Shown here piece after piece: positions 16,351 through 42,261 of a stretch of 64,000 bases of DNA. The DNA is from Pseudomonas sp. DC1.2 (lineage in GTDB: Bacteria > Pseudomonadota > Gammaproteobacteria > Pseudomonadales > Pseudomonadaceae). A program made the position numbers and the translations under genes. The stretch spans positions 3,477,001 to 3,541,000 of the forward strand of contig NZ_CP133782.1 in the NCBI RefSeq assembly GCF_034351645.1. Reading direction: 5' to 3'. Each line of letters opens with the position of its first letter. The stretch's first letter is position 1. The notes beneath the pieces were generated by a model. That model worked only from the letters and a program-made list of their open reading frames with translations, ran no database searches and was not told the origin of the DNA.

Positions 16351-16426
16351 TCCGCGATAGCTCAGTTGGTAGAGCAAGTGACTGTTAATCACTGGGTCCC
16401 TGGTTCGAGTCCAGGTCGTGGAGCCA
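16351..16426 (+). tRNA. tRNA-Asn (anticodon GTT), island integration site
   Basis: 76 nt with CCA encoded: TCCGCGA/TCGTGGA acceptor stem, anticodon loop CTGTTAA, T-loop TTCGAGT. Its last 23 nt are repeated at 42239-42261 and mark the left end of the island. The copy here remains a complete, functional-looking tRNA. Confidence 0.97.
16404..16426 (+). repeat. Left attachment site (attL) in the tRNA-Asn 3' end
   Basis: The 23-bp block from TTCGAGTCC through GGAGCCA recurs without mismatch at 42239-42261 in the same orientation. It covers the T-arm and acceptor 3' strand of tRNA-Asn, the usual crossover site of P4-type integrases, and the integrase gene begins 163 nt further on. Confidence 0.9.
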
Positions 16427-16470
16427 TACAAGGTTCCAGAGAAGGCTTCAAAAGTCTCTGAAACCCCCGA

Positions 16471-16496
16471 AAAACCCGCCTTCTGGCGGGTTTTTT
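16471..16496 (+). terminator. Terminator after tRNA-Asn / attL
   Basis: AAAACCCGCC-TTCT-GGCGGGTTTTTT, an 8- to 10-bp stem plus T run. It lies inside the island and would now terminate tRNA-Asn transcription and insulate the integrase gene. Confidence 0.85.
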
Positions 16497-16588
16497 CGTT
16501 TTGGCGTTCCGTCGGATTCCGGTAGGTACCAGCCGTTTTAAGGGTAGAGTTTGGGATAAAGGTCAGTTCGATAAAAGGGAGTACCCTT

Positions 16589-17911
16589 ATGTCGCGCACC
16601 ACTGCTCCACTCTCCGATTCCGCTTGCCGTTCGGCCAAGCCCACAGACCGCGCCTACAAGCTTTTCGACGGCGATGGCCTTTACCTTCTAGTCCAACCCA
16701 ATGGCCGTAAAGGCTGGCGGCTCCGTTACGTCAAACCTGACGGACGGGAAGGATTGACCTCATTCGGCAACTACCCCGTCATTGGCCTCGCCGATGCGCG
16801 CCGCAAGCGCCTGGAGGTCAAGCGAATGCTGGCGGATGGCATTGATCCCATAGGAGCCAAGAACCAAGCCAAGGCGGAAGCTGTGATCAAAGGCCGCACC
16901 TTTGAAAACGTCGCGCTGGACTGGCACGCGGAAATGTCAGCCAAGTGGGCACCAGACTATTCCAAGACAGTGATGAGTCGCCTCAAAACCCACCTCTTCC
17001 CGCTGATCGGCGCCCGCGCCATTGTCGACCTGGACACCCACGACCTTATGCGGCCCCTGGAAGCGATCAAGAAGCGCGGAACGATAGACGTTGCTTTAAG
17101 GGTACAAAACTACCTGCAGAGCATCATGCGCGAGGCAAAGCGCCTCCGGCTTATCACCGTAAATCCTGCTTACGACCTCGTAGGCTCGATCAAAGCCTCG
17201 CGAGTCATCCACCGCCCCGCTTTATCCTTATCGCGCTTGCCTGAATTGCAGGAACGGATCGACACCTATAAAGGCCGCGCACTTACCCGGCTGACGGTCT
17301 TGCTCTCGCTGCACGTGTTTGTACGCTCCAGCGAACTGCGCTTCGCCCGCTGGAGCGAATTCGACCTCAAGCGCGGCACCTGGGAGATACCGGACACTCG
17401 GCCAGCATTGGACGGCGTACCCTTTTCCACAAGGGGTACGAAGATGGCAGGCGATATCCATCTTGTCCCCTTATCGCCGCAAGCGGTCGCACTGCTCGAG
17501 CAGATCCACACTCTCACAGGCAAATTTGACTTGGTATTCGCAGGCGATACCAAATCCTGGAAGCCCATGTCCGAAAACACTGTGAACAGCGCGCTTCGGA
17601 AGATGGGGTACGACACCAAAACCGAGATCTGCGGCCATGGCTTTCGTTCGATGGCCTGCAGCGCACTGATCGAGTCGGGCTTGTGGACGGACACAGCCAT
17701 CGAGCGGCAGATGAGCCACAAGGAACGCAACAACGTCCGCGCCGCTTACATCCACAAGGCTGAGTTCATCGAGGAGCGCAGGCTGATCATGAACTGGTGG
17801 AGTCGCTACCTTGAGGGTAATCAGCAGAAGCATGTCAGCCCACGCGAATTCGCCAATCAGACGGGTGCGAACGTCTCTCGACTAAAAGCAAAACGTGGCG
17901 CAACTGAGTAA
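16589..17911 (+). CDS. P4-type tyrosine integrase of the island
   Basis: A 440-aa site-specific tyrosine recombinase. The N-terminal Arm-DNA-binding domain (DUF4102 type, DGDGLYLLVQPNGRKGWRLR, about residues 25-110), a SAM-like core-binding domain (about 110-215) and the catalytic domain are all present. Catalytic residues are readable: Arg in VRSSELRFARW, HGFRSMA box, His in MSHKERN and Tyr in AAYIHKAEF. The start at 16589 is preceded by GGGAG. It should excise and insert the element by recombining the 23-bp tRNA-Asn repeats. Looks intact. Confidence 0.93.
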   Translation: MSRTTAPLSDSACRSAKPTDRAYKLFDGDGLYLLVQPNGRKGWRLRYVKPDGREGLTSFGNYPVIGLADARRKRLEVKRMLADGIDPIGAKNQAKAEAVIKGRTFENVALDWHAEMSAKWAPDYSKTVMSRLKTHLFPLIGARAIVDLDTHDLMRPLEAIKKRGTIDVALRVQNYLQSIMREAKRLRLITVNPAYDLVGSIKASRVIHRPALSLSRLPELQERIDTYKGRALTRLTVLLSLHVFVRSSELRFARWSEFDLKRGTWEIPDTRPALDGVPFSTRGTKMAGDIHLVPLSPQAVALLEQIHTLTGKFDLVFAGDTKSWKPMSENTVNSALRKMGYDTKTEICGHGFRSMACSALIESGLWTDTAIERQMSHKERNNVRAAYIHKAEFIEERRLIMNWWSRYLEGNQQKHVSPREFANQTGANVSRLKAKRGATE

Positions 17912-17952
17912 GCGCTCAGTTCTTTTATCTCAGTGATCCGCTTGTCCACGCG

Positions 17953-17997
17953 GGTCCATCCAAACAGGGCTGCAAAGCCGCCCTGTTTGGATGGACC
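17953..17997. repeat. Perfect 18-bp inverted repeat after the integrase
   Basis: Arms GGTCCATCCAAACAGGGC (17953-17970) and its exact complement (17980-17997) around a 9-nt loop. No T run follows, so it is not a standard terminator. It may be a transcription barrier or a recombinase-related structure. Confidence 0.75.
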
Positions 17998-40918: not shown

Positions 40919-40945
40919 TTGTCCGGCTCTGCGTTCGACACACCG

Positions 40946-40973
40946 AAGGCCATTCGCAAGAATGGCCTTTTTT
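40946..40973 (+). terminator. Terminator after obaO
   Basis: AAGGCCATTC-GCAA-GAATGGCCTT with a 10-bp perfect stem, then TTTT. It closes the biosynthetic and immunity gene set. Confidence 0.9.
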
Positions 40974-41014
40974 ACGGCCCCATGCTGGCCCTTGGTGCAC
41001 GCCCCTCCTAATGC

Positions 41015-41975
41015 ATGACCAGACGAGCGAACCTGGATAAAGCGCTGACGCCGGAACAGCAGAAAATTCAGGAGCTGGAAGCCCGAATCGCTCGCCTTGA
41101 GCGAGAGAATTCCATACTAAAAAGGCTACCTCGCTCTTGATGTCGGAAGATCACGAGCGTTCGCGCTGATTGACCAGTTGAGCGTCCATGAGCCAGTAGA
41201 TTGGCTGTGCAAGGTGTTTGAAGTTACCCGCTCGTGTTACTACGCCCAGCGTCTCAGGCGCCGGACTTCTGATGTTGAGCGACTTCGGCTGCGCAGTCGG
41301 GTCAATGAACTATTCACACAAAGTCGCAGTGCTGCGGGCAGCCGCAGCATCCTGTCGATGATGCGTGAAGACGGAGAGCAAATGGGCCGGTTCAAGGTAC
41401 GCAGTTTGATGCGCGAGCTTGACCTCGTCAGCAAACAGCCAGGTTCTCATGCCTATAAACGAGCGACGGTTGAACGACTGGATATCCCGAATATATTGAA
41501 TCGTGAGTTTGATGTACCGGTCCCCAATCAGATCTGGTGCCGCTACATCACCTAAATTAGGCCCAGGGAAAATGGCATTACCTGGCTGTCGTCCTAGACC
41601 TTTGCACGCGCCGGATAGTGGGCTGGGCGTTGTCGGAAAAGCCAGACGCCAAGCTGGTTATCAAGGCACTGGACATGGTCTACGAACAACGTGGCAGACC
41701 TCAGGGTCCGTTGTTTCACTCGGATCAAGGGGCCCAGTATGCGAGCCGCCTGTTTCGCCAGCGGCTCTGGCGTTATCGCATGCGTCAGAGCATGAGTCGC
41801 CGGGGAAATTGCTGGGATACTCAGTTCACTATGCTCAAGAGGCCCAACGTGATATCCGTCATTTCTTGATGCATCGGTACAACTGGATACGTCCCAATCA
41901 ATTCAACGATGGGTTGGCCCCTGCAAGGGCGGAAGAAAAACTTAACGTCGTGTCCGGGATTAGTTGACCACTACA
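41015..41975 (+). mobile_element. Decayed IS3-family insertion sequence
   Basis: An OrfA tail (LTPEQQKIQELEARIARLERE coiled coil, cut at its 5' end and frameshifted near 41125) is followed by OrfB starting about 41178 (HEPVDWLCKVFEVTRSCYYAQR). OrfB shifts frame near 41555; the first catalytic Asp is lost (RYIT where GDIT is usual). It resumes as HLAVVLDLCTRRIVGW, keeps HSDQGAQYAS, then has a deletion after GNCWD that removes the last catalytic Glu. A terminal TTGACCACTACA (41964-41975) looks like the right inverted repeat; no left copy is seen. Not functional. Confidence 0.85.
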
Positions 41976-42238
41976 TTGGCGTTCCGTCCTGCCTGAAGTT
42001 GGCGGCGAGGTGTGGCAGGAGTTTTTACACACTCTGGGCCAAAAGCTGTCACTCGGATGTGCTTTCCTGATCCAGCACAGAATTGCCTGCGTACGCCACC
42101 TTCGGCAGCTTGCTGCTACCGTGCTCATGGGGTATCGAAAGAATTCCAATAAAATACGGGCTTGATTAGGATAATCGTAGGGATATGAATACTAAGAATC
42201 AGCATAATTTCATTGTAAAACAGGTGCTTATTTTTCTA

Positions 42239-42261
42239 TTCGAGTCCAGGTCGTGGAGCCA
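42239..42261 (+). repeat. Right attachment site (attR)
   Basis: A 23-bp exact copy of the tRNA-Asn 3' end (TTCGAG...GGAGCCA), same orientation as attL. The bases before it do not continue the tRNA, so this is the partial copy left by integration. Confidence 0.9.

Follow-up and report, generated by a model that had tools for sequence, protein, structure and literature searches.

An obafluorin cluster and its threonyl-tRNA synthetase immunity gene as cargo of one tRNA-Asn island in Pseudomonas

Introduction

Genomic islands of the P4/CP4 type carry an integrase gene beside a tRNA gene, are bounded at both ends by a repeat of the tRNA 3' end, contain variable cargo, and have counterparts in other genomes in the form of empty sites. 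Integrative and conjugative elements combine an integrase and att sites with a relaxase, a coupling protein and type IV secretion. The obafluorin (oba) cluster of P. fluorescens ATCC 39502 (KX931446), as described in PMC5490192, includes luxIR homologues named obaAB and the genes obaC to obaN, and adjoins a glycine cleavage system; the paper also names clusters in Burkholderia. The relevant part of PMC10619133 places obaO after obaN and assigns it the immunity role.

Neither "horizontal" nor "integrase" occurs in the main texts of PMC5490192 and PMC10619133, and the pertinent passages of PMC11381245 and PMC8719888 give no mobile island as the location of the obafluorin cluster. The former applies the term "genomic islands" in a general way to clusters of its strains, and the latter has "obafluorin" and "genomic island" in its reference list only. 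Here, we analyse a 64-kb stretch of the Pseudomonas sp. DC1.2 genome (the window, to which all positions refer), in which the two known things meet: the cluster is already known, and so is the kind of island, but here the cluster rides as island cargo. Except for the right arm of the island, to which no strand was assigned, all features described below lie on the forward strand.

Results

The integration target is a tRNA-Asn(GTT) gene (16351..16426, ARAGORN), the 3' end of which forms attL. Its last 23 bases (attL core, 16404..16426) are exactly repeated in direct orientation 25,835 bp away, at 42239..42261 (attR core), and a search of both strands of the 5.82-Mb genome found these two exact copies only. 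By our own estimate, which assumes equal base use, such a repeat would be expected by chance about 3e-5 times in 64 kb. The attR core joins the permease-side flank, which adjoins tRNA-Asn directly in the empty site of one relative (L085). The flanks were compared at 25 loci, with one genome per species: seven (L083, L085-L090) had an uninterrupted order of aspartate aminotransferase, tRNA-Asn and permease genes, one was occupied, and 17 had no tRNA in the fetched stretch. The earlier note on this DNA had proposed a discrete, att-flanked island of 25.8 kb and had suggested looking for the empty tRNA-Asn site in related Pseudomonas; the repeat, the seven empty sites and the open integrase gene described next all bear this out.

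The gene adjoining the tRNA (16589..17911) encodes a P4/CP4-type tyrosine integrase of 440 amino acids with arm-binding, central and catalytic domains (Pfam, with PDB domain matches). Its frame is open, and the residues R, K, HxxR, H and Y, which we take to be the catalytic set, are kept in all eight tRNA-Asn-type integrases compared, the window copy included, so that the integrase is intact, as had been claimed. Among the 30 integrase loci compared, tRNA-Asn adjoined all seven other sampled integrases of 94.8-96.4% identity. The 22 further loci (about 89-92%) were found beside tRNA-Thr(TGT) in 20 cases and with no tRNA found in two; a split of closely related integrases between two tRNA targets sets this group apart from P4/CP4-type islands, which the window island otherwise matches in all four of their features. 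At fourfold sites, the seven tRNA-Asn loci were 83-87% identical to the window in the integrase gene but only 55-73% in the aspartate aminotransferase gene, which indicates that the scaffold moves. Clearly, integrases of the window clade sit at tRNA-Asn, the repeat of the tRNA end bounds the element, and relatives have the site empty.

The two ends of the island are not peculiar to it. Its left arm (16427..19483) is 91-95% identical in DNA to tRNA-Asn islands of four genomes (G165, G032, G087, G233) and 86% identical to a tRNA-Thr island of PfR 37. In all five the homology ends at 19483, beyond which they have in common about 560-620 bp that are missing from the window. The right arm (42037..42238), adjoining attR, is about 80-93% identical to the right ends of the islands in G032, G233, G165, G183 and G186, and 89% identical to that in G005, over a shared stretch of 110-202 bp depending on the genome. 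The same ends enclose other cargo in G165, G186, G032, G183 and G005; examples from the ten cargo proteins scanned, which came from islands other than those of G087 and G183, are an RND pump and a C39-peptidase ABC exporter. Thus, the island ends are common to islands without the oba cluster. Both exact 23-bp copies were moreover found in two cluster-free genomes, around 9.6 kb in G165 and around 13.5 kb in G186, a situation which the earlier note had named as telling against its reading.

Between these arms lies a complete obaA-obaO set. It opens with genes for a LuxR-type regulator (19809..20522; Pfam Autoind_bind, GerE) and a LuxI-type autoinducer synthase (20749..21303; Pfam Autoind_synth), one being obaA and the other obaB, in agreement with the quorum-sensing genes reported earlier for the island. 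They are followed by obaC, encoding an AurF-like arylamine N-oxygenase (21397..22347; Pfam, named after PMC5490192), obaD, a glutamine amidotransferase (22373..22972; Pfam, and NCBIfam TIGR00566 above cut-off), and obaE, a PabB-like aminodeoxychorismate synthase (23013..24473; Pfam, and TIGR00553 above cut-off). The product of obaF (24470..25744) is a fused 4-aminochorismate mutase/aminoprephenate dehydrogenase with Pfam CM_2 and PDH domains and NCBIfam matches below cut-off; its role is taken from the cluster description in PMC5490192. The L-threonine transaldolase ObaG (25741..27063) aligned with PDB 7k34 over 440 of 440 residues (E 3.3e-295). The next gene, obaH (27060..28763), encodes a ThDP-dependent decarboxylase (Pfam TPP enzyme domains; NCBIfam below cut-off). 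The starts of obaD, obaE, obaF and obaH were picked by eye. The NRPS gene obaI (28806..34556) has the domain order C-A-T-TE-MbtH-A(aryl), as judged by Pfam and PDB 6n8e (holo-ObiF1), and a match to a DHB-AMP ligase model above cut-off.

The remaining pathway genes encode an isochorismatase (obaJ, 34600..35244; Pfam), a free aryl carrier protein with a GLDSV motif (obaK, 35241..35507; Pfam below the curated cut-off), a 2,3-dihydro-2,3-DHB dehydrogenase of the SDR type (obaL, 35492..36274; Pfam), a class II DAHP synthase (obaM, 36317..37465; Pfam, with NCBIfam below cut-off) and an isochorismate synthase (obaN, 37426..38880; Pfam Chorismate_bind). As obaK was missing from the list of ORFs of 100 amino acids, it was suspected of being broken; reading frame by frame gave an open gene and ruled this out. 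The set ends with obaO (39005..40918; Pfam, and TIGR00418 above cut-off), which encodes a second threonyl-tRNA synthetase (ThrRS), 58% identical to the housekeeping ThrRS of the same genome. The frames of obaC to obaO are all open; the beta-lactone pathway is complete and the self-immunity synthetase lies on the same segment, as the earlier note had stated. The obaC-obaN enzymes, the L-threonine transaldolase, the C-A-T-TE-MbtH-A NRPS and the second ThrRS together mark the cluster, from its genes alone, as an obafluorin cluster.

In this the cluster indeed matches the described one of ATCC 39502, the likeness being one of the functions that PMC5490192 gives to the genes. The luxR and luxI genes come before obaC-obaN functions in alphabetical order, and obaO follows obaN as in the corresponding part of PMC10619133. 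The TE-MbtH-aryl-A order of the NRPS, the free aryl carrier protein and the full-length match of ObaG to PDB 7k34 extend the likeness. The setting differs, in that a tRNA-Asn island takes the place of the glycine cleavage system reported alongside the ATCC 39502 cluster.

On either side of the cluster lies a broken gene: the truncated second recombinase and the remnant of an IS3-type element are both inside the island, and both were absent from the inventory of the earlier note. The former (18817..19483; Pfam Integrase_1) is a tyrosine-recombinase-like gene that has a frameshift close to its end and breaks off at the junction with the cassette; it covers positions 3-82 of the 149 of the Pfam profile, compared with 3-149 in G165, and longer open copies are present in G165, G087, G233 and PfR 37. 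Such a gene in the left arm of several related islands, cut at the cargo join in the window, is a further difference from P4/CP4-type islands. The IS3-type remnant (approximately 41041..41975) has an HTH_21 domain and full-length relatives elsewhere in the genome; the first ~240 bp of about 1235 are gone, and there is an internal gap of ~70 bp.

These broken parts could mean that the island once integrated and is now fixed in place, with its att sites and integrase inactive. In line with that, no excisionase was recognised in the seven ORFs scanned out of 16 small ones between the two recombinases, and the integrase copy of a relative, G005, is decayed. However, the window integrase is open and keeps its catalytic residues, both 23-bp cores are exact, and excision need not require the missing second recombinase. 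We regard such a dead relic as quite conceivable, if short of probable.

The cluster lies in a segment, 19487..41040, that is shared with P. mandelii 29 at 97.8% DNA identity (BLASTN, and the letters at the junctions). These ends are the limits of the segment shared by two genomes and may not be the natural ends of the cassette, which in the window abuts the truncated second recombinase on one side and the IS remnant on the other. In P. mandelii 29 the cassette lies at an unrelated locus, the flanks of which do not match the window; the strain has a tRNA-Asn island remnant of its own, which is on another contig. Fourfold identity between the two strains was 93-98% in the cassette, compared with 70% in the aspartate aminotransferase gene and 79% in thrS. 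The cassette is thus far closer to the P. mandelii 29 copy, at another locus, than the core genes are, and this indicates a recent transfer in either direction. No site-specific or common terminal signature was seen by eye at the cassette joins; a clean transposition was rejected, as the joins abut unrelated sequence.

In the flanks examined, none of the eight other oba-bearing genomes had a window-type integrase or a tRNA-Asn beside the cluster. A cluster lying elsewhere, unlinked to this integrase, was the second situation that the earlier note had named as telling against its reading. Two other Pseudomonas groups have the cluster at positions that different species share. In G168, gcvT and nadA lie beside it, and PfR 37 has the same flank by alignment. 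Searching 72,556 plasmid records with the ObaG protein (E <= 1e-40) gave no match counted as an oba cluster, the only matches being on three Arsenophonus plasmids with 32-33% identity. Since the cluster was at other loci in the other strains examined, the window island does not seem to be what normally carries it.

Shared positions of this kind would be expected if the cluster were ancestral at its chromosomal position, here too, with the repeat and the integrase as chance neighbours. This is hardly credible: seven relatives have the site empty and without the cluster, which refutes ancestry at this position, the exact repeat is improbable by chance, and the cassette is much closer to that of P. 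mandelii than the core genes are.

The same comparisons bear on the explanation given in the earlier note, in which integrase, pathway and immunity form one dedicated mobile unit, and its excision and insertion account for the horizontal spread of the cluster. The intact integrase, exact attL and attR, the empty sites and the contiguity of pathway and immunity gene fit such a unit; furthermore, as the transfer could have run either way, the P. mandelii copy could have come from such an island. Against it, the scaffold is found with other cargo, the cassette join truncates the second recombinase of the scaffold, and the closest cassette is off-site in P. mandelii 29 in spite of the tRNA-Asn island remnant in that strain. 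With no link to the integrase in any of the eight other carriers, the cluster lying elsewhere in every one, the window-type integrase was rejected as the general vehicle of oba, and the proposed explanation of its spread was not borne out. As a general account the dedicated unit is already contradicted, and we consider it improbable.

Discussion

Taken together, these results make it highly probable that the window holds a tRNA-Asn island of a family spread over several Pseudomonas species, that the oba cluster with its ThrRS immunity gene entered it later as cargo, and that the integrase could still excise it. The island is a composite of a family scaffold and the oba cassette, and, since the scaffold has other cargo and all eight other carriers have the cluster elsewhere, it is one setting among several for a cassette transferred between species.

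To judge from the arrangement of its parts, the first event would have been insertion of an older island at tRNA-Asn by the integrase. The oba cassette would have arrived in it afterwards, taking the place of the last part of the second recombinase gene on one side and abutting a broken IS3-type element on the other. Excision of the whole 25.8-kb segment by the integrase is possible, and re-insertion could follow. The island resembles integrative and conjugative elements in its integrase and att sites but differs from them in that Pfam gave no match to relaxase, coupling protein or type IV secretion families among its 18 main ORFs, antisense overlapping ones not being counted. Its movement between cells would thus need outside help from a plasmid, a phage or natural uptake. 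P. mandelii 29 may have got its cassette from an island of this type.

The comparison tells apart a vehicle, the recurrent tRNA-Asn island chassis, and a cargo, the antibiotic cassette, which has a transfer history of its own. There is a caution in this, in that att sites around a cluster do not establish that it was spread by the integrase. Recent transfer between Pseudomonas species has involved a full antibiotic pathway together with an immunity gene that duplicates the target, and the exact junctions given here (19483/19487 and 41040/41041) are where such sharing is testable. We put forward only tentatively the joint reading that the island still excises and that a general Pseudomonas tRNA-Asn chassis recently captured a complete antibiotic-plus-immunity cassette. 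If it is true, the cassette would gain a site-specific vehicle, which would deliver production and resistance jointly to relatives bearing tRNA-Asn.

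The oba genes lie in an island at a tRNA-Asn gene

The island is bounded by a tRNA-Asn(GTT) gene (16351–16426, ARAGORN) and by an exact, same-orientation copy of its last 23 bases (42239–42261). The adjoining bases already differ on both sides, and the 5.82-Mb single-contig genome has no third exact copy. The enclosed segment has an open reading frame for an integrase of 440 aa (16589–17911), in which arm-binding, central and catalytic domains are recognised, together with a LuxR/LuxI pair and genes matching obaC–obaO. The aryl carrier protein gene obaK (35241–35507) has an open frame, with a Pfam match below the cut-off; it was missing from our ORF list, as the threshold of that list was at least 100 aa. 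The 23-bp repeat, integrase, quorum-sensing genes and obafluorin-type cluster named in the earlier note were all confirmed, but the note had overlooked two damaged parts, namely a second recombinase, which is truncated, and the broken remnant of an insertion sequence.

When 57 genomes (relatives, with DC1.2 included) were searched with the right flank, a long permease-side match was found at 25 loci outside DC1.2. In seven of them (L083, L085–L090) tRNA-Asn links the flank on the aspartate aminotransferase side to the right flank without interruption, providing the empty site that the earlier note had proposed to look for; at L085, the right flank starts at the first base past the tRNA. At L082 (genome G005), another island occupies the same site. 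The stretches fetched for the remaining 17 loci contained no tRNA and are hence uninformative by themselves; two of these genomes, G030 and G032, have the left arm of the island some 20 kb ahead of the permease.

Elsewhere in the window, two tandem tRNA-Glu/tRNA-Ala pairs are found at 6921–7433; their tRNA genes are covered by exact repeats, in blocks of 76 and 83 bp. The G+C content of 60001–64000 is 47–51%, as compared with about 56–59% in the preceding stretch, and this is possibly a further acquired region.

The same scaffold carries other cargo in other genomes

Integrase matches at E ≤ 1e-190 were present in 76 of 296 genus-sample genomes, including that of the window. The tRNA neighbours were determined for 30 of the stronger matches; another G032 copy, at 92%, and everything weaker fell outside this set. 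A tRNA-Asn gene adjoins the window's integrase and all seven others of 94.8–96.4% identity, and tRNA-Thr(TGT) adjoins 20 of 22 further loci (about 89–92% identity), no tRNA being found at the other two. This target split among close integrases makes the two groups well suited to finding out which residues determine the choice of tRNA. Fourfold-site identity to the window in the seven was 83–87% for the integrase versus 55–73% for aspartate aminotransferase, and this excess within the same genomes argues that the island chassis moves between species.

Both exact 23-bp copies, with no oba-cassette match between them, were found in G165 (9.6 kb) and G186 (13.5 kb), and left-arm sequence together with a right end bearing an imperfect second 23-bp copy was found in G032, G183 and G005. 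The genus search for ObaG found no match in any of these five genomes. The cluster and the two 23-bp copies had been expected to go together, but cluster-free G165 and G186 keep both copies. The cargo scan covered ten proteins, a part of the cargo present. The single G005 protein scanned is an RND pump. In G032 the scan showed an enoyl-CoA hydratase and an enzyme of acyl-CoA ligase type, whereas of three G165 proteins one has a DUF4145 domain and the others gave no match. G186 encodes a C39-peptidase ABC exporter with an HlyD partner, and also a Fic-domain protein and one similar to aspartyl proteases. The exporter and HlyD partner of the G186 island (L195) resemble a peptide-bacteriocin export system. 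The window island is one member of an island family.

Joins between the scaffold and the oba cassette

Left-arm homology ends at 19483 in all five of G165, G032, G087, G233 and the PfR 37 tRNA-Thr island; it ends earlier in G183, G186, G030 and G005, and also in G022, where the fetched stretch runs out. Beyond the left arm, the former five have in common about 560–620 bp that are absent from the window. In G165 these complete an Integrase_1 recombinase (profile 3–149 of 149); the window's second recombinase is frameshifted and cut (profile 3–82). Homology to P. mandelii 29 spans 19487–41040 at 97.8% identity, and is followed from about 41041 by an IS3-type remnant lacking the first ~240 bp of an about 1235-bp element; the shared right arm starts at about 42037. 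As the shared segment stops at the window's own joins, 19487 and 41040 need not be the natural ends of the cassette. Three full-length IS3-type relatives elsewhere in the genome are 86–89% identical to the remnant. These copies (L210–L212; genome positions 2907003, 1207223 and 718287; about 1235 bp) are mutually 99.9–100% identical, which suggests recent activity in the DC1.2 genome.

The cassette in other carriers

Between the window and P. mandelii 29, fourfold-site identity was 93–98% for six oba genes, far above that of aspartate aminotransferase (70%) and housekeeping thrS (79%), which points to a recent transfer of the cassette, possibly in either direction. In P. mandelii 29 the cassette is on contig C34. 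Its left flank there has D12 methylase genes and others of phage/T6SS type, and its right flank has the reverse transcriptase of a group II intron and a fragment of an integrase arm domain. This strain's tRNA-Asn beside aspartate aminotransferase is on contig C28; after it come a remnant of the left arm, in scrambled form, and cargo, and the 16 kb fetched at this site contained no oba-cassette match. The C28 cargo (L208), behind a scrambled integrase remnant, is a composite of G183-like and G005-like island types (92–96% identity). ObaO (39005–40918) is closer to Chitiniphilus housekeeping-type ThrRS (64–65%) than to Pseudomonas ThrRS (57–58%), so that this immunity gene may have come from outside Pseudomonas.

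A scan for ObaG in a species-level genome collection gave 33 loci, 7 at 77–100% and 26 at 33% or less; the latter were not counted as oba clusters. The genus sample had ObaG in 4 of 298 genomes, the window included. With duplicates merged, there were eight other carriers (P. mandelii 29, PfR 37, G168, Kh13, GD04091, P. parasichuanensis and two Chitiniphilus), in four flank settings: P. mandelii; PfR 37 and G168; three Kh13-like genomes; and the two Chitiniphilus. The cluster flanks of all eight (40–60 kb fetched each) lacked tRNA-Asn and left-arm DNA. A whole-genome integrase search of all eight gave a broken fragment (37%) and a distant copy (35%) on the P. mandelii 29 cluster contig, one 30% match about 200 kb from the cluster on the complete G168 chromosome, and no further matches on cluster-bearing contigs. 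The 90% integrase of PfR 37 is on a separate contig from its cluster, at tRNA-Thr. The proposal that island packaging explains the spread of the cluster is thus unsupported, as all eight other carriers have it off this island.

Downstream of the cluster in G168 and PfR 37 is a tRNA-Lys. The gcvT and nadA genes beside the G168 cluster, in a flank common to PfR 37, fit the glycine cleavage system that adjoins the ATCC 39502 oba cluster according to its description (PMC5490192). We infer that this type cluster is at the same locus. G168 also has a different ~26.4-kb stretch (L203–L204, G168:C1:4016205–4042663), from tRNA-Asn to a 53-bp sequence that matches the tRNA end at 96%; its oba cluster is outside it.

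A proposed history of the island

The island is real, and the oba cluster is already known; in the searchable obafluorin literature, mostly not in full text, we found no report of the two combined. We consider it very probable that this is a member of the tRNA-Asn island family with the oba cassette as later cargo, whichever way the cassette was transferred. Most likely, the integrase recombined the 23-bp core and thereby placed an older island at tRNA-Asn, and the cassette entered this island later, when the second recombinase would have lost its end and a broken IS would have been left at the right join. Excision of all 25.8 kb may still be possible, because the integrase catalytic residues are kept and both 23-bp cores are exact. 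No excisionase was recognised in the island ORFs scanned and no transfer genes were found among the Pfam matches of its 18 main ORFs, so movement between cells would need outside help. If the island moved, obaO would presumably travel with the pathway. The island offers a clear-cut example, open to testing, of how a known kind of island captures cargo.
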